Positions 1 to 41,058 of a stretch of DNA of 45,997 nucleotides are shown piece by piece; the first letter of the stretch is position 1; every line of letters begins with the position of its first letter. Below the pieces are notes generated by a model. That model had not been told where the DNA came from and ran no database searches. It saw only the letters and a list, made by a program, of their open reading frames with translations. Origin of the DNA: a virus; the IMG/VR virus record IMGVR_UViG_3300022074_000087, positions 1 through 45,997 of that record; one strand, given 5' to 3'. The translations under genes and the position numbers were made by a program.

Positions 1-145
1 TACTTATAGCTCTTACAGTTCTACAGATAGGACTGCACCTGACGGAGATAATCATAGACATAAATACTCATATCGTTCATCTATTATAGACGGAAGTAGG
101 TTATACACCGAAGGAACGCACCTAACTTTAACGAGGAGGGTGTAA
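1..145 (+). CDS. C-terminal end of an upstream gene, hypothetical (partial)
   Basis: Frame 2 is open from the first base to a TAA at 143-145, giving the last 47 residues of a protein whose start lies outside the window. The peptide is rich in Ser, Tyr, Arg and Asp, and I do not recognise a family. The stop codon overlaps the next start (TAATG), and the ribosome-binding site GAGGAGG of the next gene lies inside this frame. That supports a translated, coupled frame, but with only 47 residues the call stays tentative. Confidence 0.45.
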   Translation, partial: TYSSYSSTDRTAPDGDNHRHKYSYRSSIIDGSRLYTEGTHLTLTRRV

Positions 146-913: not shown

Positions 914-1174
914 ATGCCAAAAATATATGAGAGAAACCCTGACACTGATGAGATTCGTGAGAGAGATTTCAACGATTATCAAGAGGCCGCAGACAGTATG
1001 AGAGATATGAACAGAGATGACCATCTGAATAGAGATAAACAACCGAGTCCTTATCGCAATGAGATGGCAGAGGCAGTAGAGATACTTCAAAGAATGAATG
1101 ATAAGTTAGACAGATTACTTGAACAACAGAAGGAACATCTAGAGAAAGAACACCCTCAAGATGATGGTAAATGA
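914..1174 (+). CDS. Small hypothetical protein with C-terminal coiled coil, 86 aa
   Basis: The start at ATG 914 is chosen over an upstream in-frame TTG at 866 because AAAGGAGAGAG lies just before it. The product is strongly charged: residues 1-50 are rich in Asp, Arg and Asn, and residues 50-80 (AVEILQRMNDKLDRLLEQQK) have heptad spacing typical of a coiled coil. No family is recognised. The stop codon overlaps the start of the next micro-ORF (ATGA at 1171-1174), starting a chain of coupled frames. It is expected to be expressed early from the promoter at 585-613. Confidence 0.75.
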   Translation: MPKIYERNPDTDEIRERDFNDYQEAADSMRDMNRDDHLNRDKQPSPYRNEMAEAVEILQRMNDKLDRLLEQQKEHLEKEHPQDDGK

Positions 1175-1245
1175 ATTACCCTAGTTTTCTCTTCTGGATT
1201 TTTCTCTTGACAGCAGTGTTGTTTTTGAATATAATGTACTTATGA
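1171..1245 (+). CDS. Micro-ORF, 24-aa hydrophobic peptide
   Basis: ATG at 1171 overlaps the preceding stop (ATGA) and the frame ends in TGA at 1243-1245, which overlaps the next ATG at 1242. The peptide is almost entirely hydrophobic (Phe, Leu, Ile, Trp, Val) and would form one membrane helix. The coding DNA also carries a consensus sigma70 promoter (1207-1235), so part of its residue composition could reflect promoter sequence. It has no independent Shine-Dalgarno and would depend on coupling to the gene before it. Confidence 0.45.
   Translation: MNYPSFLFWIFLLTAVLFLNIMYL
1207..1235 (+). promoter_or_regulatory. Perfect sigma70 consensus promoter (TTGACA-17-TATAAT)
   Basis: TTGACA at 1207-1212 and TATAAT at 1230-1235 with a 17-bp spacer match the bacterial vegetative consensus exactly. 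Transcription would start around 1242, at or very close to the ATG of the 28-aa micro-ORF, giving little or no leader for that frame. The promoter lies inside the preceding 24-aa micro-ORF. Confidence 0.9.
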
Positions 1246-1328
1246 GATATTATTTCTATATGGGATTAGGTTACATACTCTATGTGTGTATCTTCGGATA
1301 TATTATGACAACTCATTTTGGGTACTGA
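1242..1328 (+). CDS. Micro-ORF, 28-aa Tyr-rich membrane peptide
   Basis: The frame starts at ATG 1242, overlapping the stop of the 24-aa frame (ATGA), and ends at TGA 1326-1328. It encodes an aromatic, hydrophobic peptide (many Tyr, Gly, Ile, Phe) long enough for one membrane helix. It has no clear ribosome-binding site, so expression would need coupling or near-leaderless initiation from the promoter at 1207-1235. It is supported by its place in a run of four hydrophobic frames rather than by homology. Confidence 0.45.
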   Translation: MRYYFYMGLGYILYVCIFGYIMTTHFGY

Positions 1329-1330
1329 GT

Positions 1331-1393
1331 ATGTTCGACTATGTAGCAATACTTCTAGTGATATTAATACTATTAAACTATTTGGAGTTATAA
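1331..1393 (+). CDS. Micro-ORF, 20-aa Leu/Ile-rich peptide
   Basis: ATG at 1331 follows the previous stop by two bases, and the frame ends with TAA at 1391-1393 overlapping the next ATG (TAATG). After MFDY the peptide is a run of Val, Ala, Leu and Ile ending NYLEL, a single possible membrane helix. At 20 residues it is at the limit of what can be called a gene; position and overlap at the 3' end are the evidence. Confidence 0.4.
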   Translation: MFDYVAILLVILILLNYLEL

Positions 1394-1542
1394 TGAAAAA
1401 GAAATTGAAGAATAAGGCAGATAAGTTTATACACTACTTTGGAGAAGGCACTGTATGGGATTTGGATTATGGTAAGTTGATAATCCTATTTCTTTGTATA
1501 TACATTGCAATACAAGTATCTGGGTGTGCAGTATGGCTTTAA
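1393..1542 (+). CDS. Small single-pass membrane protein, 49 aa
   Basis: ATG at 1393 overlaps the stop of the previous frame (TAATG), with GGAG about nine bases upstream. A Lys-rich N-terminus (residues 2-11, MKKKLKNKADK) is followed by a soluble stretch and then a hydrophobic helix at about residues 29-48. The positive-inside rule suggests an N-in orientation in the host inner membrane. The frame overlaps the next gene by ten bases. I do not recognise a family; small phage membrane proteins of this kind can act on the host envelope, but nothing here proves it. Confidence 0.6.
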   Translation: MKKKLKNKADKFIHYFGEGTVWDLDYGKLIILFLCIYIAIQVSGCAVWL

Positions 1543-1877
1543 TGCACCCTATGTATAATCATATCGGAAGAAGTCCTAAGAAAAAAAGAAGAAAGACACA
1601 ATCATTACTTGTTGCAGAAAAACAACACAATGCGTGGTTGAAGTCTATGGGTTTAGATGGTAAGAAACCGAAAAGAGTAAATAGAACAATGCTCTCTGTG
1701 AACTACCATACAGAGAAACCTATCGAAGAAAAGAAAACATTCATACAACCGAATTGGAGTCCATGTGTTAAGAAACCTGAAAGAAAGACTGACAAGACTT
1801 ATACCGTTGCGATTGCGTACAACAAAGGTGCGTACCAAGTCATCAGTCCAAAAGACATCAAAGACATTGGAAAGTAA
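1533..1877 (+). CDS. Conserved-looking basic hypothetical protein, 114 aa
   Basis: I start this gene at ATG 1533 (MALMHP), overlapping the end of the 49-aa membrane protein; an in-frame ATG at 1494 would lie deeper in that gene. Residues 10-25 are very basic (PKKKRRK), followed by SLLVAEKQHNAWLKSMGLDG, a motif I recall from hypothetical proteins of marine T4-like phages. The C-terminal part (YTVAIAYNKGAYQVISPKDI) looks like a small beta-rich segment. Function is unknown; the charge would suit nucleic-acid binding, which is inference. A sigma70 promoter follows its stop directly. Confidence 0.75.
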   Translation: MALMHPMYNHIGRSPKKKRRKTQSLLVAEKQHNAWLKSMGLDGKKPKRVNRTMLSVNYHTEKPIEEKKTFIQPNWSPCVKKPERKTDKTYTVAIAYNKGAYQVISPKDIKDIGK

Positions 1878-1879
1878 AG

Positions 1880-1908
1880 TTGACAAACCCTTTGGTGGTG
1901 TGTATAAT
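1880..1908 (+). promoter_or_regulatory. Perfect sigma70 consensus promoter (TTGACA-17-TATAAT)
   Basis: TTGACA at 1880-1885 and TATAAT at 1903-1908 with a 17-bp spacer match the bacterial consensus exactly. Transcription should begin near 1915 and serve the genes from 1940 onward. It overlaps the stop region of the gene before it. Confidence 0.9.
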
Positions 1909-1939
1909 ATAATTTTTAACAAACATGAAAGGTGGTAAT

Positions 1940-2107
1940 ATGAGTGTAACCAAAACTGCAAACGACCATAGTTACTTTTATTTACAACGTGCAAAAGAGT
2001 TGTTTCAATGCGACCAGAGAACCTTCAAATGTAATTACGCATCTTGGGATAGATTACCGAAGACTACAAGAGATTACTATGAAGACCTTGCAAGGAAACA
2101 ATCGTGA
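1940..2107 (+). CDS. Small hypothetical protein, 55 aa
   Basis: ATG at 1940 is preferred to the in-frame ATG at 1925 because AAAGGTGG sits five bases upstream of it. The product contains YFYLQRAKELFQCDQRTF and WDRLPKTTRDYYEDLARK, a compact, probably helical, charged protein without recognisable motif. It is the first gene after the sigma70 promoter at 1880-1908, and its stop overlaps the GTG start of the next gene (GTGA), suggesting coupled translation. Confidence 0.7.
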   Translation: MSVTKTANDHSYFYLQRAKELFQCDQRTFKCNYASWDRLPKTTRDYYEDLARKQS

Positions 2108-2346
2108 ACTGTTGGCATTGTGGAACAGAACTGATATGGGGTGGTGACCACGACTTAGAAGATATGACTGATGAGTATGATGTGGTAACCAACCTATCGT
2201 GTCCGAACTGTGGTGCGTATGTCGAAGTCTATCGTCCTGTACAGAAAGAGAAAGAGAGTGAAGTAAAAGAACCTGCTTACTCTCCTGATGCTCCCTGGCT
2301 AGATGATGCGATAGATAGAGTAGACCCTAAAATTTTCGAATCGTAA
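2104..2346 (+). CDS. Zinc-ribbon protein, 80 aa
   Basis: A GTG start at 2104 overlaps the preceding stop (GTGA). Two CxxC pairs, C3-C6 (CWHCG) and C33-C36 (CPNCG), about 27 residues apart, form a classic zinc ribbon, with GGDHDLEDMTDEYDVV between them. Residues 45-80 are acidic and probably disordered. Very similar short ribbon proteins with the N-terminal CWHC-TELIWGGDHD pattern are common in marine T4-like phages (recollection, not searched). Role unknown; such ribbons may bind DNA, RNA or protein. Confidence 0.8.
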   Translation: MNCWHCGTELIWGGDHDLEDMTDEYDVVTNLSCPNCGAYVEVYRPVQKEKESEVKEPAYSPDAPWLDDAIDRVDPKIFES

Positions 2347-2374
2347 CTCCGATTCGTTTCTGTGAGATAACTCT

Positions 2375-2911
2375 ATGATGATACCTTTTGACGAAAAGTT
2401 TCCTGTCCATACGGAAACTCTGACGAATGTAGAAGACCTTAATCGTATATTGGAGAATGATATTCGAGAGTCTGGAGATGGGTTGCAAGGAAGAAACGCA
2501 TCTGCAAAGTGTCTGATGACTCGGTGGGATATGTATGACCAATACAAGTCCTTTCGTATGTTGGGTAATGCAGCTATCCAACTTGCGTCCCTGATGCCTC
2601 TTGCAACACGAACACATCAAGACGGAACAGACTATCCTATACAATATAAAGTGTCTACCTCTTGGGGATTAATCTATACGAAAGGTCAATCCACAAGTAG
2701 TCATACACACTGGCCTGATACTTGGAGTTGGACATACTGCGTAAGTGCGTGTGAAGATTGTAGTCCTCTGGTGTTTACTCACGCAGATTATTCTATTAAA
2801 CCTCAAGAAAGTCAGATGATTATCTTTCCAGGCTGGTTACATCATGAAGTTCCTACGCACACTTGCGACCATGAAAGAATTATGATTGCTGGTAATTTAG
2901 TCAGTTTGTAA
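2375..2911 (+). CDS. 2-oxoglutarate/Fe(II) oxygenase-like protein, 178 aa
   Basis: The protein resembles the phage 2OG-Fe(II) dioxygenases of the TIGR02466/prolyl-hydroxylase type. An HxH pair (H110, H112 in SHTHWPD) is followed at about residues 148-158 by MIIFPGWLHHEV, the usual turn that carries the distal metal histidine, and then by R168 in ERIMIAGNLV, the place of the 2OG-binding arginine. The metal set H110/H112, H156 or H157 is inferred from the pattern. Phage enzymes of this class oxidise protein or nucleic-acid side chains; the substrate here is unknown. It lies just before the baseplate genes. The Shine-Dalgarno is weak. Confidence 0.7.
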   Translation: MMIPFDEKFPVHTETLTNVEDLNRILENDIRESGDGLQGRNASAKCLMTRWDMYDQYKSFRMLGNAAIQLASLMPLATRTHQDGTDYPIQYKVSTSWGLIYTKGQSTSSHTHWPDTWSWTYCVSACEDCSPLVFTHADYSIKPQESQMIIFPGWLHHEVPTHTCDHERIMIAGNLVSL

Positions 2912-3139: not shown

Positions 3140-4150
3140 ATGAAAGATAATTACTTTATGGGAGCAGATGGTTTCTTCTGGTTCACTGGAGTGGTGGAAG
3201 ATAGAAACGACCCATCAAAGTTAGGTAGAGTAAAAGTTCGTTGTCTAGGGTTACACAGTGAAAATAAAGTTGATATACCAACAGCAGACTTGCCTTGGGC
3301 TCATGTCATGCAGTCTACAAATAACCCTTCCATGCAAGGACTAGGGAACACTCCCACTTTTCTTGTTGAGGGAACTTGGGTAGTTGGTTTCTTTTTAGAT
3401 GCAGTGGAGAAACAACAACCACTGATTATGGGAACTTTGCCTGGCATTCCTCAAGATGTTGCAAATACTAATAAAGGTTTCAATGACCCTAACGGAACTT
3501 ATCCTTCTTCAAAGATAACGCACTCTAATCATTCTACGGAAGAGAGTGATGTGAATCGTCTTGCACGAAACGATACCGATTTTTCACACGCAGTTGTATC
3601 TGCAAAGAATACAGGAAGAACTACAGGAGTTGCAATCGCAAACTCATCTACTACCTTTGATGAACCTAGCTCTGCATACGCAGCCTCTTATCCAAAGAAC
3701 CATGTGATGGAAACAGAGAGTGGACACATTAAAGAATATGACGACACGAGTGGTGCAGAAAGAATACACGAGTATCATACAAAGGGAACATTCTATGAGA
3801 TTGACAAAGACGGAAACAAAGTTACTAGAGTGGTGGGTGATAACTATGAAGTGATTGCAGGCTCTGACTTTGTAAATGTCAAGGGAAGTGCGAACCTGAC
3901 TGTATCAGAAACCTTAAGTATCAAAGCAAAAACAATACAGATGGAGGCAGATACAATCAATGAAGTTTATGGAACTCATACATCAACTACTGGAACATAC
4001 ACACATACTGCAACGACTGGTAATACAACATACTCAAGTGGTGAGATTACAGTCAACTCTATTACACAAACACAGCATACACATTCACAACCTTCAGATA
4101 GTGATGGTGATTCTGAGTCTGAAACTAACTCACCAACATCTGGCACATAA
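3140..4150 (+). CDS. 5: Baseplate central hub protein gp5 (no lysozyme domain)
   Basis: Residues 13-125 match the N-terminal OB-fold of T4 gp5 (GVVEDRNDPSKLGRVKVRCLG, later DLPWAHVMQS and VEGTWVVGFFLD). Residues 190-235 (METESGHIKEYDDTSGAERI, then HTKGTFYEIDKDGN) match the segment before the needle, and residues 235-300 are the beta-helical spike (VKGSANLTVSETLSIKAKTI). The tail is Ser/Thr/His/Asp-rich. At 336 aa it is far shorter than T4 gp5 (575 aa) because the muramidase domain between the OB-fold and the helix is absent. It forms the hub and membrane-piercing spike. It is expected late. Confidence 0.95.
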   Translation: MKDNYFMGADGFFWFTGVVEDRNDPSKLGRVKVRCLGLHSENKVDIPTADLPWAHVMQSTNNPSMQGLGNTPTFLVEGTWVVGFFLDAVEKQQPLIMGTLPGIPQDVANTNKGFNDPNGTYPSSKITHSNHSTEESDVNRLARNDTDFSHAVVSAKNTGRTTGVAIANSSTTFDEPSSAYAASYPKNHVMETESGHIKEYDDTSGAERIHEYHTKGTFYEIDKDGNKVTRVVGDNYEVIAGSDFVNVKGSANLTVSETLSIKAKTIQMEADTINEVYGTHTSTTGTYTHTATTGNTTYSSGEITVNSITQTQHTHSQPSDSDGDSESETNSPTSGT

Positions 4151-6542: not shown

Positions 6543-9500
6543 ATGGCAGATGAAAAGTCAAAACTACTGACTAAAGTTTCACCACTCATAGAAGGACAGG
6601 TGCCTGACTTCATACAGGCAGACCACCCAATCTTTGTAAACTTTTTAAAACAGTATTATAGGTTTCTTGAAGCTGGTCAAGTGACCTATGAAGTGGTAAA
6701 CAGTTATGTGCGTTTTGAAACTACAACTGTTGCATATGTGTTAGATGAAAAAGATAGTGACAGAATACTTACAGAGGATACACAACAGTTCACTAACGGT
6801 GAAACAATTACAGGTAACACCTCTGGTGCAACTGCAACGATACTTGTAGAAGATTCAAGAAATCTAAAACTTTATATTTCATCACAACAAAAGTTTATCA
6901 CTAACGAAACATTTACTGGTGGCACATCTGGTGCTCAAGGTAAACTTACAAACTATCGTGCAAACCCAATACAAAACATACAACAACTTTTAGAATACGC
7001 AGATGTAGATAATACTATCTTTGATTTCTTAGACCAGATGAGAGCTGCACTGATGACTGCGATACCTAACTCTCTTGCAACCAGTGTATCAAAAAGAAAA
7101 CTACTTAAAAATATTAAAGACCTTTATGCAGCTAAAGGTACAAAAGAAGCAACAGAATTATTCTTCAGAATATTACTTGGAGAAGAGGCTAATATATTCT
7201 ATCCTACAGAACATATGTTGCGTGTATCAAATGGTGATTGGAGAAGAGAGGTAACTCTAAGATGTTCTGGTTTTACTGGTGTGTCTGGTGATGAGATTAT
7301 TAATCAAAAAATTACTGCACAAACTTCTGGTGCAACTGCGATTGTTAATGATGCGATTACATTTCAAGAGGGAACACAATCTGTTACAGAGTTAGAACTT
7401 GCAAATATTACTGGAACATTTCAAGATGGTGAAGTAATTATTGCAAACTCTACTGTGCGAGATGTGAATGTTTCATTTACAGTAGAGGCTATACTTTCAT
7501 CTGCATCTTTATCTAATGATGGTATTCTTCACACAGACACAGAACCAGTCGAGATAGAAAACTTAGGAAACAATAAAGCAGAGATAGTTGTAAGTGGTAT
7601 TACCAGTGGTTCAGTAAGTGAAGTAATAGTTGATGATGCTGGTTCTGGATATGAGGTGGGAGATGTTCTTACCTTTACAACTTCAGAGAGTGATACTAAA
7701 TCTGCAGCTGGTTTCGTCAGTGTAGTTGGTGGTGGTATACAATTAGAAACTGGGACACTAGATGACTCTGAAGTAACTACAGATGTAATCATTATAGAAG
7801 ACGGAACAACTGCATCAGAAGAAACATTCAATATTGTTTTAGATAGAACAGATGTAAATGGTTCAGATGCAAACAGTGATATTATATTAGATGGAACAGA
7901 TGCAACAAGTTCTAATGCTGGTTTCTCATTACTTACTGATACAGTTGTTGAAACAAACGATACATATGGAACTACAAACGATAGACTGTTCTTAGAAGAG
8001 AATACTTTTAGTTCATCAGAAAGAGGTTCTATACAAAGAATATTCTTATCAGATGGTGGACTGTACATTTCAGATTTACCGACTGTTACTATTACAAGCA
8101 CAGGTGGTACAGGTGCTGCTCTTACTGCATTAACAAATGATATAGGTGCAGCTAAATCTATCAATGTAAAAAATACAGGATTTGATTACTCAACATCAAA
8201 CCCACCAGAAATAGAACTACGAGCTCACTTTATTCTTAAAGATGTTACAGGAACATTTGCAAATACAAATACACTTACAACTCATACTGGTGTGGTCAAA
8301 GGTTTCGACTCCAACACGAAAGTTCTCGACACAACATTTGAAGATGTAATCAGGACAGTGCAAGAACAAGAGGGAACTTTCAACGAAGAGATTGCGTTAG
8401 AAAAAGGTACAACTATTTTAGAACCACAAGGTATTTTACTTGAAGATGAATTAGACTTTGATGATGGTGAGGGAATACTATTAGAAGATGGTGGATTTGT
8501 TTTACTAAACGGAGAAAGTAAACAAACTTATAATATTAAAATGGAAGCAAACACAATACCGTTTACTTCTTTGGGAAGTCTTATACAAGAAGACGATAGT
8601 GGTGAGATACTTTTAGAGGGTGAACATAACGAACAAGTGCAACACGAGGGTAGTAAACTTTTATTAAACAGATACAGAGAAAATAATCCTAACTCTAGTT
8701 ACCTAGTGATTGAAGCTGGTAATACTGGAGATGAAAACGATAGAGTATCTACAGAAGAGTTTGGTAACTTACTCTTATTGAATGGAACAGATTCAGATGG
8801 TACAGATGCAATGGGTAAACTATTGTTCCCAGATGAAACTGGAAATGGTAATATGGTCTATGACCAAACTGCATCTGGTATAGATGTCGCTGGTGATATC
8901 ATACACGAAAGTGGTATTGACTTCTCTAAAAAAAATGTTATTATCACAGATTCGAGTGGTGCGTCTGGAACTATCGTTAAGGCTGACATTGCAAAAGGTA
9001 CAACAGTCGTTGATACTATTTCAACATCAGTTGGAAGTTATGAGGGTATCGAAAGCATTATCGGTGAAGACTTAATTAGAATACAAGACTCTTTCTTCTA
9101 CCAAGATTATTCTTACGAAGTTCAAATCGGTGCGTCTTTATCTTCTTATCTAAATGAGTTAAAGAAAGCAGTTCACCCAGCTGGATTTGCACCATTTGGT
9201 AAAGTGACAATTGCAACTGCACTTAATGCTGGTGTAAGAAATGCTGGTTCTGAGTTACCTGGCTACGAAGAGAAGTTCTCACCAATCCTTGCATCTGCTC
9301 TTGAGAATATCTTTGAACAAGTTTTTGGAATGAGATTAAAAGCAGACAACTCTGGTATTGGACATAGAGATGATAAAATCATTTATGAAACAGGTCATGT
9401 TGCTGGAGATAATTTAATTCTTGATGGTTCATCATCAGTGGCTGCATCTAACACACCAAGTAATATTTCCATACTACTTGAAGAAGGTTCACAACCAGAT

Positions 9501-11045
9501 GGATACGACTATGATGTTGCGTATGTAATACTGGACTCAAGTGATGGGTTCAATGATGTGGGTGGTAAGATAGATGTGGAGGCTGGTTCATCTACTGACG
9601 AATATGATAACATACTTGCAGAAGATGGAAATGTATTTGCACTAGAAGATGGTTTTATTAAACAAGGTGATGATATACTCTTTGAGGGAACAGTAGTAGA
9701 CAATGAAGTTGCTGGTGGAGTAATGAAGGCAGAGAGTGCTCATAATGGTGTGGGTGGACAAAATGAAAAGACACTTGCAATAGTACACACTGTTAAGTTA
9801 AGTGTCAAACCAACAGTCAGACAAAGTAGAAATCTATTAACACACATTGCAACAAACACATTTGAGTTTGAAGATGTAACAGGTATTCAATTAGAGAATG
9901 GATTGGTATTAGGATTAGAAGATTTTGGTAATACCGATTTAGAGTCTAATAATATTCTTAACGAAGATGACTCTGGAGATTTATTTCTTGCAGAGGAGGG
10001 AACATCACCTCTTGTATCAGATAACCTTGTGTTAAATGCAACACAGGCTCCAGAGAGTTTTGGTTTCATTGTATTGAATGGAACAGATGCAAGTGGAACA
10101 GATGCTGGTGATAATATCAATATGGAAGACTCCCACGATATTGATACTGCAAGATTAATTACAGAAGATTCTTATGTTGTTCAGATTGGACAGGCAAGAC
10201 AGAATGCTGGTGAGAAGATAATCGTTGAGGACAATAAAAGTAGTGCATTACAATTAAGTCAGATAGGTAGTTTCACATTTGCAGAATTTCTAAGAAGAGA
10301 TAAGATTATCATAGAGAATAATTTTGATATTAATCATTTAGATTTTAAACACCATATTGCATTAGAAGAAAGCACTTCACCTATCGCACTAGAGAATAGT
10401 GAGTTCTTTGTAGAGTTAGAGGAAGAAACAAAATATAAAACAAAATATAGGGACAATGGACAGACAGAGTCAAGTCAAGCAAATGGTGAAGAGGCAGATG
10501 GTATTTCATTAGAAGCAGAATCAGGAAGTTTAGTTGTAGAAGATTACTCAACTAACTCATTTATAGAAGCTATATTATTAGAGAGTGGAACACAAGTGGG
10601 TGGGCAAGACCATCTTGCGATAGAAAGTTCTCTTACAAGAGATGATGATATTGATGATGGTTTCTTACTAGAAGATGGTACAGGTCAAGATGTTGGTGAT
10701 GTTATTATACTAAATGGAACAGACAGCTCTAGTTCAGATGCTGGTTTCAAACTTCTATCACAACTTGATGAAGATGAGATACTTCAAAACCCAAGAGTAT
10801 TCTTGATGGAAACATCAAATGTATTTCCAAGTGTTGGTTCAATACCACTAAGTAATTTTACACTAAATAGTACAAGTAGTGGTTATGACCCAGTAACACA
10901 TTCTTCAGTAATTACAACTAGAGATACTGGTGACATTGCACTTGAAGATGGAACAGACACAAATGATTCCTCAAATGGTTTCTTACTAGAAGAAACAAGT
11001 GGGGATAATATAGATTTAGAGGGTGCAACTGGTATAACACCTTAA
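6543..11045 (+). CDS. Giant virion structural protein at the gene 7 position, 1500 aa
   Basis: It follows gene 6 directly. The N-terminus (LIEGQVPDFIQADHPIFVNFLKQYYRFLE) and residues 145-240 (DFLDQMRAALMTAIPNSL, AAKGTKEATELFFRILLGE) match a structural protein that follows gp6 in marine T4-like phages; it occupies the gp7 place, but I cannot show homology to T4 gp7 (1032 aa). Three ITGxTSGAT-type hairpin motifs occur before residue 270. From about residue 400 to the end it carries repeated acidic strands (ILLEDG, LEDGT, LNGTDASGTDAG). A second conserved block near 860-950 (LSSYLNELKKAVHPAGFAPFG) is marine-phage-typical. Probably baseplate wedge or fibre-bearing. Confidence 0.8.
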   Translation: MADEKSKLLTKVSPLIEGQVPDFIQADHPIFVNFLKQYYRFLEAGQVTYEVVNSYVRFETTTVAYVLDEKDSDRILTEDTQQFTNGETITGNTSGATATILVEDSRNLKLYISSQQKFITNETFTGGTSGAQGKLTNYRANPIQNIQQLLEYADVDNTIFDFLDQMRAALMTAIPNSLATSVSKRKLLKNIKDLYAAKGTKEATELFFRILLGEEANIFYPTEHMLRVSNGDWRREVTLRCSGFTGVSGDEIINQKITAQTSGATAIVNDAITFQEGTQSVTELELANITGTFQDGEVIIANSTVRDVNVSFTVEAILSSASLSNDGILHTDTEPVEIENLGNNKAEIVVSGITSGSVSEVIVDDAGSGYEVGDVLTFTTSESDTKSAAGFVSVVGGGIQLETGTLDDSEVTTDVIIIEDGTTASEETFNIVLDRTDVNGSDANSDIILDGTDATSSNAGFSLLTDTVVETNDTYGTTNDRLFLEENTFSSSERGSIQRIFLSDGGLYISDLPTVTITSTGGTGAALTALTNDIGAAKSINVKNTGFDYSTSNPPEIELRAHFILKDVTGTFANTNTLTTHTGVVKGFDSNTKVLDTTFEDVIRTVQEQEGTFNEEIALEKGTTILEPQGILLEDELDFDDGEGILLEDGGFVLLNGESKQTYNIKMEANTIPFTSLGSLIQEDDSGEILLEGEHNEQVQHEGSKLLLNRYRENNPNSSYLVIEAGNTGDENDRVSTEEFGNLLLLNGTDSDGTDAMGKLLFPDETGNGNMVYDQTASGIDVAGDIIHESGIDFSKKNVIITDSSGASGTIVKADIAKGTTVVDTISTSVGSYEGIESIIGEDLIRIQDSFFYQDYSYEVQIGASLSSYLNELKKAVHPAGFAPFGKVTIATALNAGVRNAGSELPGYEEKFSPILASALENIFEQVFGMRLKADNSGIGHRDDKIIYETGHVAGDNLILDGSSSVAASNTPSNISILLEEGSQPDGYDYDVAYVILDSSDGFNDVGGKIDVEAGSSTDEYDNILAEDGNVFALEDGFIKQGDDILFEGTVVDNEVAGGVMKAESAHNGVGGQNEKTLAIVHTVKLSVKPTVRQSRNLLTHIATNTFEFEDVTGIQLENGLVLGLEDFGNTDLESNNILNEDDSGDLFLAEEGTSPLVSDNLVLNATQAPESFGFIVLNGTDASGTDAGDNINMEDSHDIDTARLITEDSYVVQIGQARQNAGEKIIVEDNKSSALQLSQIGSFTFAEFLRRDKIIIENNFDINHLDFKHHIALEESTSPIALENSEFFVELEEETKYKTKYRDNGQTESSQANGEEADGISLEAESGSLVVEDYSTNSFIEAILLESGTQVGGQDHLAIESSLTRDDDIDDGFLLEDGTGQDVGDVIILNGTDSSSSDAGFKLLSQLDEDEILQNPRVFLMETSNVFPSVGSIPLSNFTLNSTSSGYDPVTHSSVITTRDTGDIALEDGTDTNDSSNGFLLEETSGDNIDLEGATGITP
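7740..11036 (+). repeat. Acidic LEDG / LNGTD repeats within the 1500-aa protein
   Basis: At least a dozen copies of a degenerate pattern, hydrophobic-hydrophobic-LEDG and (I/L)(V/L)LNGTDxSxxDAG, fall in clusters at about 7740-8010, 8440-8560, 8770-8830, 9415-9690, 9885-10170, 10360-10440 and 10500-11036. DNA is also similar between copies, for example ATGGAACAGATGCAA near 7889 and 10079. The same pattern occurs in other virion genes of this window. Confidence 0.8.
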
Positions 11046-23250: not shown

Positions 23251-24342
23251 ATGCCATATCTAGGAAGAAGTACAGACGGTTTCGGAGTAAGAGATAGATT
23301 TGTCTTTACTGCGTCAGGGAGTGAAACATCTCTCAGTGGTTCAGATGACAATAGTAGAACTCTTAAATACCAAGACGGCACATACATTGATGTTTTTATG
23401 AATGGTGTTCTACTTCTTCGTGGAACAGACTATAATACAAACACCACAAACACCATAGCAGGTCTTGCATCTTTAGCTGCAAATGATATAGTAGAGATAA
23501 TTGTTTATGATGTATTCTCTGTTGCAGACACAGTTTCTAAATCAGATGGTGGTAGTTTTGTTGGTGCAGTAACATTTGACTCGACCACCACTATGACAGG
23601 TGCTCAAACTCTTACAGGAACAACAAGTGCAACTCAAATAGATATTGAGGGTGAAACACTTTTAGAAGAAAGAGCAATTATGTTAGAGGGAACTGACAGT
23701 GATTTTTCTAATGAAGGTTCACTTCTTTTATTAGACGCAAGTGCATCTGGAACTGATGCTGGAGAGAAACTTTTATTCGAAGCAAACACACTAGACTCTC
23801 TTACAAAAGAAGACCCTGATGCATTAGTATTAGAGGACAATGATAATAACGGATTTATATTTCATAATACAAGCACAAATGAAAGAGTATCAACACAAAA
23901 AATTACTTTAGAGAGTGGAACACAGTTTGAGATACCAAATACTCTTACTGCACCAAAGGTCACTGGTGTGGCTGAAATTGCAAATGTAGGTGGTGACCAA
24001 AATACAAACTTTGATAATAGTGTATCAGTGGACATAAAGGCTATGAGTTTAGGTGCTGGAACTCATATATTAGATTTAGATAGAAATGCAAACTTTCAAT
24101 TAACATTAAGTGGTAACATTACACTTGCAAATCCAGCAAACTTAACAGCAGGAACAACAGGAAGTATTTTTGTGATACAAGATGGTACAGGAAGTAGAAC
24201 AGCAAGTTTTGGAACAAGTTGGGATTTTATAGGTGGAACTGCACCAACATTAACAACAGCTGCAAGTTCAGTAGATAGAATAGATTATATTGTGTTAGAC
24301 TCCACAAACATTCATGCAGTAGCAACACTCGCATACTCATAA
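23251..24342 (+). CDS. Tail-fibre-like protein with LEDG repeats, 363 aa
   Basis: The N-terminus (DGFGVRDRFVFTASGSETSL, TYIDVFMNGVLLLRGTDYNT, LAANDIVEIIVYDVFSVADT) is the common marine phage-fibre attachment module. Residues 130-193 hold acidic repeats (TLLEERAIMLEGTDSDFSNE, LLLLDASASGTDAGEKLLFE). The last 85 residues (NFQLTLSGNITLANPANLTA, IFVIQDGTGSRTASFGTSWD) are a diverged copy of the C-terminal domain at 20978 and 33135. It has its own late promoter. Probably a trimeric fibre; host-range role is inference. Confidence 0.75.
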   Translation: MPYLGRSTDGFGVRDRFVFTASGSETSLSGSDDNSRTLKYQDGTYIDVFMNGVLLLRGTDYNTNTTNTIAGLASLAANDIVEIIVYDVFSVADTVSKSDGGSFVGAVTFDSTTTMTGAQTLTGTTSATQIDIEGETLLEERAIMLEGTDSDFSNEGSLLLLDASASGTDAGEKLLFEANTLDSLTKEDPDALVLEDNDNNGFIFHNTSTNERVSTQKITLESGTQFEIPNTLTAPKVTGVAEIANVGGDQNTNFDNSVSVDIKAMSLGAGTHILDLDRNANFQLTLSGNITLANPANLTAGTTGSIFVIQDGTGSRTASFGTSWDFIGGTAPTLTTAASSVDRIDYIVLDSTNIHAVATLAYS

Positions 24343-28599: not shown

Positions 28600-29703
28600 A
28601 TGGCTGTCAATAGTGCGTTTCACACAAATAATCTCACATCACTTAAGTCAGAAAGAAATCTGTATAGTGATTTAATAAAAGAGGCAATCCAGATACATGG
28701 ACATGATGTTTACTATATGGATAGACAATCTGTTGCAGCTGATACAATCTTTGGTGAAGATGCACTGAACAAATTTAATACCCAACACCCAATCGAAATG
28801 TATATTGAAGACGGTGAGGGTTATGCTGGTGACAAAGAGATTATGACACAGTTTGGTTTAGAGAACCGAAACGAAATTACCTTTGTTGTACATAAGAAAA
28901 GATTTCAAGAAATGGATAGACAAGTTCAAATTGAAGATGCAACAGATAGTTCTTCAAGTGGTTCTATATTATTAGAAGCAGGAACACTAGACCAATCAAG
29001 TTTATCTGCTGAATTAAATACAGTTACAAAAAGTTTTATCTTTGATGAGAGTGCAGAAAAAATTGTTTTAGAAAATGACAATGAAGGCAGAATACTTTCA
29101 GAAGAAAGTGGTAATGAGTTTTATTTAATTGTAGATACTGCAGCCACAGATGCAGACAGACCACAAGAAGGTGATTTAGTTTATCACCCAATTGTAGAAA
29201 AAATATTTCAAATAAACTTTGTAGACCATGATGAACCTTTTCATCAATTAGACAATAATCCTATTTACAAACTTAAGTGTTCACAGTATGAGTATAGTTC
29301 AGAAGTTCTTGATACAGGTATTGAAGCAATTGATGAGATTGAAGATAATCAATCTACTGATACACTTGCACATCAGTTTACAATGGAGCAATCAAGTGCA
29401 GTCAACGAAAACATTAGACTTGAAAATTTTAATATTCATGGAGAAGGTGTGTTACTTGAAGAAACAGATGGTGATAAAGTTCTCTTTGAAAATGACTCAA
29501 CATCAGTCGGTGAAAATATCGCACTTGAGGTTGGTTCAGATGACTCAGGTATAACTGCATACCTCTTACAAGAAACCTATATAGTAGGAGATAGTAATAC
29601 AACTAAGACAGCTCCATTGGAGCAAAACGAACTGTTTGATACAGAAGATGATAACATATTAGACTTTACGGAAAGAAATCCGTTTGGTGATGCTGGAGAT
29701 TAA
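28600..29703 (+). CDS. 14: Neck protein gp14, enlarged by acidic repeats
   Basis: Residues 1-105 match the gp14 family (SERNLYSDLIKEAIQIHGHD, VYYMDRQSVAADTIFGEDAL, DKEIMTQFGLENRNEITFVV). Residues 190-240 (GDLVYHPIVEKIFQINFVDH, PIYKLKCSQYEYSSEVLDTG) are also conserved. It is longer than T4 gp14 (367 against 256 aa). The extra length lies at about residues 110-175 and 265-330, which carry LEDG-type acidic repeats (SGSILLEAGTLDQSS, GEGVLLEETDGDKVLFEND). It acts with gp13 at the head-tail joint. Gene 15 begins two bases after its stop. Confidence 0.9.
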   Translation: MAVNSAFHTNNLTSLKSERNLYSDLIKEAIQIHGHDVYYMDRQSVAADTIFGEDALNKFNTQHPIEMYIEDGEGYAGDKEIMTQFGLENRNEITFVVHKKRFQEMDRQVQIEDATDSSSSGSILLEAGTLDQSSLSAELNTVTKSFIFDESAEKIVLENDNEGRILSEESGNEFYLIVDTAATDADRPQEGDLVYHPIVEKIFQINFVDHDEPFHQLDNNPIYKLKCSQYEYSSEVLDTGIEAIDEIEDNQSTDTLAHQFTMEQSSAVNENIRLENFNIHGEGVLLEETDGDKVLFENDSTSVGENIALEVGSDDSGITAYLLQETYIVGDSNTTKTAPLEQNELFDTEDDNILDFTERNPFGDAGD

Positions 29704-38976: not shown

Positions 38977-41058
38977 ATGTCATTTTTAGTTTCCCCAGGC
39001 GTTAGAGTTAGAGAGATTGACTTAACGAATGTTGTTCCTGCCGTTGCTACTTCAATAGGTGCTATTGCAAGTGCATTTGAGAAAGGGCCTGTTGGTTCAA
39101 TAGTAAACATAACTTCAGAGGAAGAATTGATACAGATTTTTGGAAGACCTCAAAATGACAGTAATCAATTCGAGAACTTTTTTACTGCAGCCAACTTTCT
39201 TGGATACACTGACGCACTTAAAGTAGTTAGATGCGAATCTGGTATAGTAAACGCAACTGCAAACGGTGCTGGACTTTTAATCAGAGATGATGACCACTAT
39301 GATAATGACTTTGACAATGGTCAAGCATCAGTCGGAGAGTGGGTCGCAAGAACAGCTGGTACACATGGAAATGCAATAGGTGTTTCAATATGTGCGAGTG
39401 CAACTGCATACGAGCAAACTGCTGTAACCACAACATCTGGTACAGAAGCTGCTGGTCAAACAATTATATCAGTAACAGACGCATCAGTATTTGGTGTAGG
39501 AGATATTGTAAACTTTGGTGAAACAGGTAATATCGAATACGAAACAACAACAGTAAACACATCTGATAACACAATCACAATAAAATTATTAGATGATGTA
39601 AATGGTGCTGGATTACAGAATGCTGTTGCATCTGGAACAAACATTAGAAGAAGATGGAGATTTTATGACTTGTTTGATGGTGCTCCAGGCACTTCCTCTT
39701 ATGCAACAGAAAGAGGCAGAGGAACTAATGATGAGATGCATATTGTTGTTTACGATTACACAGGTGAACAATCTGGGTTTGATGTAGACGCAAACGGAAA
39801 TAGAACAAATGGTGTATTAGAAACTTATCCAAACTTATCAAAGAATATAAATGCAAAATCACCACAAGGTGACAGCATCTATTATCCTTATGTAATCAGA
39901 AAACAATCACAATTTGTATACTGGACAGACCACAACAGTGCTGGTGTAAACTGGGGCACAGACATTGATGCAACAACAGGTAACATTGTCTTAAACTCAA
40001 CTGACGGTTCATCAGATGCTGGTGATAAAATATCACTTGAAGATGGAACTGGAAGTGCTGGTTCAATCGAAATGGAAAGTGGAACAAGTGCTTACTCTGC
40101 ATTAAACACACCGACTAAATCAGAACTTGCTGGAGGAACAGATGACTACGCAGTAACAGCTGGTGAGTTAGAAACTGCTTACGGTAAGTTTGAAGATACA
40201 GAGTCAGAAGATATCAATCTTGTATTAGGTGGTAAAGGTGGAGGAGCTGGTGACACTGCATCTTCACAAGATACTCACGTTACAATGTTGACTGCACTTG
40301 TAGAAAAAAGAAGAGATTGTATTGCGTTAGTATCACCCTATCGTTCTGCAACTGTAGGTGTATCAAGTTCAAATACAGCCACAGACAATGTCGTAGAAGC
40401 GTTTGATTTATGTCCTTCATCATCTTATGTGGTGTTTGACAGTTCATACAAATATCAATACGACAAGTACAATGATGTATTCAGATTTGTACCAATGAAC
40501 GGAGATACTGCTGGTTTATGTGCAAACACAGACAATGTTGCAGATGCTTGGTTCTCACCTGCTGGATATAACAGGGGTGGAGTAAGAAACGCAATTAAAT
40601 TGTCTTACAATCCAAAGAAAGCAGAAAGAGATAGATTATATCGTGCAAGGGTTAACCCAGTTGTTAACTTCCCAGGCCAAGGTGTAACACTATTTGGAGA
40701 TAAGACTGCATTAAGTAAACCAAGTGCATTTGATAGAATTAATGTAAGAAGATTATTCTTAGTTCTAGAAAAAGCAATTGCAACTGCATCTAAGTTCCAA
40801 CTCTTTGAGTTCAATGATGAATTTACAAGAGCACAATTTAGAAACCTAGTCGAGCCTTTCTTAAGAGATGTTCAAGGTCGTAGAGGTATTCAAGACTTTA
40901 GTGTTGTCGCAGATGGGACAAACAATACTGGAGAAGTCATAGACAGAAACGAATTTATTGCAGACATTTTTGTTAAGCCTGCTAGGTCAATTAATTTTAT
41001 AACACTGAACTTTATCGCAACACGAACAGGCGTATCGTTTAGTGAGGTAGGAGGTTAA
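38977..41058 (+). CDS. 18: Tail sheath protein gp18
   Basis: The N-terminus (SFLVSPGVRVREIDLTNVVP, SIGAIASAFEKGPVGSIVNI, EEELIQIFGRPQNDSNQFEN) and C-terminus (RRGIQDFSVVADGTNNTGEV, DRNEFIADIFVKPARSINFI) are classic for the contractile sheath. Length 693 aa (T4: 659 aa). The middle (residues 155-375) holds the variable outer domains, including at 333-374 a LEDG/NSTDGS acidic repeat (IVLNSTDGSSDAGDKISLED) found also in other virion proteins here. It polymerises around the tube and contracts on infection. AGAGGAG lies eight bases before the ATG; gene 19 begins two bases after the stop. Confidence 0.97.
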   Translation: MSFLVSPGVRVREIDLTNVVPAVATSIGAIASAFEKGPVGSIVNITSEEELIQIFGRPQNDSNQFENFFTAANFLGYTDALKVVRCESGIVNATANGAGLLIRDDDHYDNDFDNGQASVGEWVARTAGTHGNAIGVSICASATAYEQTAVTTTSGTEAAGQTIISVTDASVFGVGDIVNFGETGNIEYETTTVNTSDNTITIKLLDDVNGAGLQNAVASGTNIRRRWRFYDLFDGAPGTSSYATERGRGTNDEMHIVVYDYTGEQSGFDVDANGNRTNGVLETYPNLSKNINAKSPQGDSIYYPYVIRKQSQFVYWTDHNSAGVNWGTDIDATTGNIVLNSTDGSSDAGDKISLEDGTGSAGSIEMESGTSAYSALNTPTKSELAGGTDDYAVTAGELETAYGKFEDTESEDINLVLGGKGGGAGDTASSQDTHVTMLTALVEKRRDCIALVSPYRSATVGVSSSNTATDNVVEAFDLCPSSSYVVFDSSYKYQYDKYNDVFRFVPMNGDTAGLCANTDNVADAWFSPAGYNRGGVRNAIKLSYNPKKAERDRLYRARVNPVVNFPGQGVTLFGDKTALSKPSAFDRINVRRLFLVLEKAIATASKFQLFEFNDEFTRAQFRNLVEPFLRDVQGRRGIQDFSVVADGTNNTGEVIDRNEFIADIFVKPARSINFITLNFIATRTGVSFSEVGG

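Follow-up and report, generated by a model that had tools for sequence, protein, structure and literature searches.

Bacterial proteins with a single helix at the extreme C terminus are known from ElaB, YqjD and YgaM of E. coli (PMC6389858, PMC10746276), and uncharacterised small proteins are listed in phage and microbiome catalogues such as GMSC (PMC11364881). Leader peptides with translational coupling, nucleoid proteins of the AT-hook or histone H1-like type and the leaderless genes of bacteria (reviewed in PMC3160421) each resemble one part of the locus described here. This locus is a chain of four small open reading frames, ORF1 to ORF4, in a window of 45,997 bases (the whole stretch of DNA that was analysed, a linear virus record) whose source, by its sequence, is an uncultured marine T4-like phage. 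Judged against family libraries, ORF4 is a member of an undescribed microprotein family, and ORF3 is a 20-codon frame that recurs in another type of phage.

The chain of small frames and its promoters

The window contains T4-type virion genes, including a gp5-like baseplate gene at 3140 whose closest named relatives are those of pelagiphage Mosig and of Methylophilales phages. No close record was found in the cultured-phage collection, and a distant DNA search of cultured phages with the ORF1-4 region gave short AT-rich matches only. The chain lies at the left edge of the window, within an early-type region, with all frames on the + strand. The upstream gene (914-1174, +, 86 aa) encodes a soluble protein and has a strong Shine-Dalgarno site; its stop codon overlaps the start of the hydrophobic ORF1 (1171-1245, 24 aa) as ATGA, a second ATGA joins ORF1 to ORF2 (1242-1328, 28 aa), a 2-nt gap separates ORF2 from ORF3 (1331-1393, 20 aa), TAATG links ORF3 to ORF4 (1393-1542, 49 aa), and ORF4 overlaps the downstream gene (1533-1877, +, 114 aa; gene 1533) by 10 nt. 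The coordinates, lengths and links given in the original prediction are all exact. It had also placed a probable membrane helix in every frame; by the peak Kyte-Doolittle values over 17 residues (2.5, 1.7, 2.4 and 2.5 for ORF1 to ORF4, respectively), ORF2 is only moderately hydrophobic.

Such a chain is, as had been proposed, beyond chance: in 1000 dinucleotide shuffles three linked hydrophobic frames never appeared, which rejects chance ORFs as a reading of the whole chain, and no other chain of at least three such frames is present in the window. A single hydrophobic frame of ~20 codons, however, appeared in ~40% of the shuffles, i.e. it is not rare in AT-rich DNA, and each frame therefore needs evidence of its own. 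Codon usage, scored as log-odds, gave no separation of ORFs 1-4 from random synonymous choice, the frames being too short. ORF4 is the only one of the four with a clear Shine-Dalgarno site (GGAG, 1384-1387, +), located in the last sense codons of ORF3.

A perfect sigma70-type promoter (TTGACA-17-TATAAT, 1207-1235, +) is indeed present inside ORF1, with a start site expected at ~1242, and makes the suggested expression early in infection plausible. The window has a second perfect TTGACA-17-TATAAT at 1880-1908 and two near-perfect sigma70 promoters at 585 and 866. Because the -10 box of the promoter in ORF1 ends 6 nt before the ATG of ORF2, ORF1 is not readable from it. ORF1, which spans this promoter and has no clear Shine-Dalgarno site, has no support beyond its open frame; it is doubtful as a gene and likeliest a chance ORF. 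The same 6-nt distance speaks for ORF2, which probably has a leaderless start. This spacing is also seen at ORF3 in the phage contig L166 and at an ORF4-family gene in L015; it occurs in 6 of the 77 strong promoters with a nearby ATG, two of the six belonging to one gene shared by related phages. With transcription starting 6-7 nt past the -10 box, such mRNAs would be leaderless, and the strong sigma70-type promoters with this geometry (in L166, L171, L179, L015 and at 1207-1244 of the window) suggest leaderless genes in these phages.

No relatives of ORF1 and ORF2 were found by a concatenated ORF1-3 search, an ORF2 pattern search or locus comparison; the empty concatenated search is a weak negative, as it also missed the real ORF3 copies, probably through low-complexity masking. 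The ORF2 pattern search gave three matches, all unrelated. The claim that the frames are overlooked by usual gene-length limits, under which both ORF3 and ORF4 fall, stands for these two, which are real conserved membrane-type micro-ORFs.

ORF3 recurs before unrelated genes

ORF3 (1331-1393, +) encodes the peptide MFDYVAILLVILILLNYLEL. A search with a pattern of its tail, in which nine codons (stop included) were fixed and the remaining twelve left free, retrieved five contigs of another phage type (L166-type) that encode MIDYIAILLVILILLNYLEL, a full-length match with 18 of 20 residues identical. The copies differ at six codons, by four synonymous changes and two conservative replacements, and 10 of the 12 free codons, start codon included, match in residue. 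In the L166-type phages a GH108 lysozyme gene precedes ORF3 at a distance of 21 nt, ORF3 shares bases with the start of a PD-(D/E)XK nuclease gene, and a perfect TTGACA-17-TATAAT ends 6 nt before the ORF3 ATG. Together with a relative of the window, L012, in which the tail is kept, ORF3 directly precedes three genes: ORF4 in the window, gene 1533 in L012 and the nuclease gene in the L166-type phages. In each setting its last codons hold GGAG, the Shine-Dalgarno site of the next gene. The support for ORF3 consists of one other phage type and the eight C-terminal residues in L012.

The features expected of a coupler, overlap with the next start and an embedded Shine-Dalgarno site, are both present, and ORF3, perhaps with ORFs 1-2, could be a leader frame that brings the ribosome to this site rather than encode a functional peptide. 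The three different genes behind ORF3, the GGAG in its last codons, the position of ORF1 across the promoter and the codon usage without signal all fit such leaders. A leader indifferent to its own sequence would not, however, be expected to retain 18 of the 20 residues across distant phages, where four of the six altered codons are synonymous and the other two conservative, although the sample is small; nor would a pure leader need the hydrophobic pattern, which is kept as well. We consider leader frames a serious alternative, somewhat short of an even prospect. ORF3 shows that a 20-codon gene is able to travel with the start signal of the next gene.

ORF4 is absent from the relative L012

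L012 (L006 and L012 are one contig) is the only relative that reaches the ORF3-ORF4 junction; its next gene, the counterpart of gene 1533, is 82% identical. In its sequence, ATACTCTTAAACTATTTGGAGTTATAGTATGGCACTAATG, the end of ORF3 differs by one synonymous substitution and in its stop codon, and gene 1533 starts immediately behind it. A unit of ~137 bp (1393-1529, +), i.e. ORF4 minus its last codons, is thus present in the window and absent in L012, which identifies ORF4 as a movable unit. Gene 1533 has more distant relatives in L016 and in pelagiphages HTVC008M and Mosig, and L016 carries an ORF4-family gene 0.5 kb from its gene 1533 homologue, so that the difference could be a gain or a loss alike. 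Relatives in which stops or frameshifts break the frames and the flanking genes persist had been named beforehand as the observation that speaks against the chain; L012, with the end of ORF3 and gene 1533 and without ORF4, is in part such a relative.

Several other features were recorded. Eight relatives, L001-L008, found via an oxygenase gene at 2375, all start within window positions 1367-2550, which hints that this stretch is hypervariable or hard to assemble. A glutamine riboswitch (RF01739, 60.9 bits against a cut-off of 35) is found at 72-122 (+), just upstream of an 80-aa gene at 145-387. A conserved non-coding element, AATCTATAAATGCAATAA(A/G)(G/T)AT(A/C)C, in most cases with a run of G or C and an AAACTG-like stretch ahead of it, occurs in the leaders of different small genes: at ~730-785 of the window, L016 2905-2938 (directly before the ORF4-family gene), L101 1382-1443, L083 182-227, L032 1345-1391, L099 656-693, L075 325-356 and L037 687-718. 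It has no Rfam match in the window; a T4-type late promoter (TATAAAT) and an RNA leader are both possible identities. In addition, a peptide repeat, (N/D)GTDxxxxDAGxxxxLEDG, read from the sequence, recurs in several virion proteins of the window phage, inside single proteins as well as from one protein to another (6543-11045, 23251-24342, 28600-29703 and 38977-41058).

ORF4 belongs to a conserved microprotein family

A protein search with ORF4 (1393-1542, +) gave 19 relatives with the consensus MKKxKxMWExxYGEGTKFDLDYGKLIILFLCIYIAIKVS, and a profile scan detected relatives encoded in 439 IMG/VR stretches. The family consists of ~40-residue proteins with the signature GEGTxxDLDYGK followed by a C-terminal membrane helix. 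ORF4 of the window carries both, the motif as GEGTVWDLDYGK (residues 17-28, 1441-1476, +) and a single helix of the LxIxxLCxYIAxxVS type as the membrane segment LIILFLCIYIAIQVS (residues 29-43, 1477-1521, +). Most members stop at VS; GCAVWL is added in the window copy, and other members also have VSGC tails. As a candidate lipobox of a lipoprotein signal peptide, the window copy has VSGC at residues 42-45, with a similar stretch in the MWGR subgroup; it comes late in the chain and most members do not have it.

Across 56 family members G17, G19, T20, D23-K28 and Y37 are invariant, and all synonymous codons are in use for the motif residues. For the family as a whole the median dN/dS is 0.19, and each of the 363 informative pairs falls below 1. 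Freely varying synonymous codons and a dN/dS below 1 indicate that selection acts on the protein. No significant match to the family was found in Pfam, NCBIfam, PHROGs, the anti-phage defence models of PADLOC, PDB, cultured phages or plasmids, except for the AT hook in some host tails; matches in PDB were due to chance. The GEGT-DLDYGK motif string was not found in the literature searched. An AlphaFold model of modest confidence (mean pLDDT 70) predicts a helix at residues 3-17, a break at 18-19 (GEGT) and a helix at 20-48 that runs into the membrane segment.

Hosts and gene neighbourhoods of the ORF4 family

Several hundred marine virus contigs carry the family, as do chromosomes of SAR116 and other marine alphaproteobacteria. 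A scan of one genome per species retrieved 34 loci in bacterial assemblies, mostly SAR116, and the T4-type capsid protein gp23 was found in four large virus contigs among the 31 family records tested. The distribution in bacteria is patchy: the gene is present in 3 of the 385 genomes sampled at class level, in 2 of 61 genomes related to one Pelagibacter cell, in 14 of 121 from the order of a SAR116 genome and in 4 of 9 from one family. A tree of the family, poorly resolved with its 36 columns, needs at least three changes of host/phage label, and the gene from Paracoccaceae (L114) clusters with those of T4-like phages. One bacterial record, the Neomarinimicrobiota-labelled MAG L129, probably contains mis-binned phage, as its assembly has two T4-type gp23 genes and its 335-kb contig has gene neighbours in common with virus contigs L087 and L015.

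Many SAR116 copies have lysine/alanine-rich N-terminal tails. The PF02178 AT-hook cut-off is passed by two SAR116 proteins only (L104 and L106), with marginal scores; ORF4 of the window has no PF02178 match, and most phage copies are without any DNA-binding tail. Positively charged segments stay in the cytosol (the positive-inside rule), and by this rule the basic SAR116 tails place the N terminus there.

No constant gene neighbour or partner of the family was found among the loci compared. In phages the neighbours vary and include MazG-, ThyX-, glutaredoxin-, DNA glycosylase- and DNA polymerase-like genes, several of these names being assigned by eye from sequence, and other phage copies lie in gene blocks with M15-type peptidases. 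On chromosomes, the gene lies beside lon-, clpX- and HU-like genes in SAR116 L123, shares a neighbourhood with a murA-like gene downstream in three alphaproteobacterial MAGs, and in two Pelagibacteraceae single cells has the same efflux pump as its neighbour. Another small membrane ORF directly follows the chromosomal gene in L107 (5109-5249) and L123 (5126-5344).

Some of these neighbourhoods would suit a lysis, membrane-permeabilising or superinfection-exclusion protein, roles for which small single-span proteins are typical. Endolysin-type neighbours are seen in the MWGR subgroup, which lies ~1-3 kb upstream of M15-type peptidase genes, at the L136 copy, which has a lysozyme gene nearby, and at ORF3 in L166; among the genes scanned beside ORF4 in the window there is none. 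The chromosomal copies, however, are away from lysis genes, other phage copies sit by the MazG-, ThyX-, glutaredoxin- or DNA polymerase-like genes (so named by eye), and the invariant segment of ORF4 is predicted to face the cytosol. ORF4 has no similarity to holin or lysis protein families, and its PHROG matches are weak (best E 0.013, an Rz-like spanin). Such a function is unlikely for ORF4 in general; the MWGR subgroup, next to its M15-type peptidases, may have a lysis-related role.

ORF4 might instead be an auxiliary metabolic gene whose product is a small accessory subunit of a membrane complex for electron transfer or related to copper. Blue-copper genes are found near two phage loci and SAR116 L107 and L108; L104 and L107 have cytochrome c genes nearby, and several phages carry DoxX-like genes. 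These are a minority of the loci, the motif has no conserved metal ligands and one host clade has Leu in place of the conserved Cys, so that we give this reading little credence. The phage blue-copper (pseudoazurin-like) proteins are encoded at L021 1011-1460 and L022 2268-2717 (PF00127, 60 bits in L022), near a ~98-aa membrane protein that is also found near SAR116 L107, L108 and L110.

Finally, the original proposal that the four peptides form one small envelope-acting complex, made attractive by adjacency, coupling and hydrophobicity, is very improbable and the conserved four-part unit is rejected, since ORF3 and ORF4 are each found without the other and without ORFs 1-2, no relatives of ORFs 1-3 were found beside ORF4-family genes in the IMG/VR loci examined, and the excess of small membrane ORFs behind ORF4-family genes falls short of significance (11/44 versus 22/155, p = 0.11).

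Discussion

Taken together, the promoter geometry, the recurrence of ORF3, the mobility of ORF4 and the protein-level conservation and host versions of its family lead us to propose a compact operon, expressed early and built from micro-genes that move separately, in which ORF4 probably docks on a conserved membrane partner; we hold this model with about even confidence. The host-type sigma70 promoter (1207-1235) would start transcription from or next to the ATG of ORF2, which would be translated as a leaderless gene. Ribosomes would then traverse the 20 codons of ORF3, and the Shine-Dalgarno site in its last codons could serve any gene that follows, in the window ORF4, a movable unit set between ORF3 and gene 1533. 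The product of ORF4 would be a C-tail-anchored inner-membrane microprotein, with a short basic N-terminal helix, a cytosolic GEGTxxDLDYGK segment and a C-terminal membrane helix of ~15 residues.

Because the segment predicted to face the cytosol is the invariant part of the protein, it probably docks on one conserved membrane-associated partner, which would also be used by the chromosomal homologues. We infer this docking from conservation, topology and host fusions. In the SAR116 homologues the same anchor bears a tail that is rich in lysine and in some cases of the AT-hook type, and the phage protein would use or occupy the same membrane site without a tail, a form of mimicry. A far more speculative extension, to which we attach little weight, is that a membrane-tethered AT-hook/H1-like protein of SAR116 ties DNA to the inner membrane and that many kinds of marine phage captured the tail-less anchor, displacing the host protein and freeing or remodelling the nucleoid early in infection.

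A ~40-residue protein with a 12-residue near-invariant motif in marine viruses and bacteria would point to one conserved membrane-side target that is reused in infections. The GEGT-DLDYGK motif is also a short handle that can be searched for, synthesised and used as bait.

Comparison with known systems

ORF3 resembles leader peptides with translational coupling in that it terminates at the start codon of the following gene and holds that gene's Shine-Dalgarno site; it differs in its conserved peptide sequence and in the unrelated genes behind it. With ElaB, YqjD and YgaM the ORF4 family shares the lack of a signal peptide, the single helix at the extreme C terminus and a cytosolic N-terminal part, which is likewise basic in the SAR116 versions. 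However, it has no Pfam similarity (Pfam and NCBIfam were searched), its phage copies are only ~36-49 residues long and GEGTxxDLDYGK is unlike these proteins. Some SAR116 homologues, with KKRGRPKK over the PF02178 cut-off, and others, with lysine/alanine-rich tails, recall AT-hook and histone H1-like nucleoid proteins, but here the tail is joined to a membrane anchor, and it is absent from the window copy. Like the small proteins of GMSC-type catalogues, the members are short, often have predicted membrane spans and are missed by usual gene calling, whereas the sharp invariant motif, the hundreds of phage copies and the chromosomal homologues set them apart. Single-span phage microproteins are already known; what is new is a sharply defined, widespread family with chromosomal AT-hook versions.
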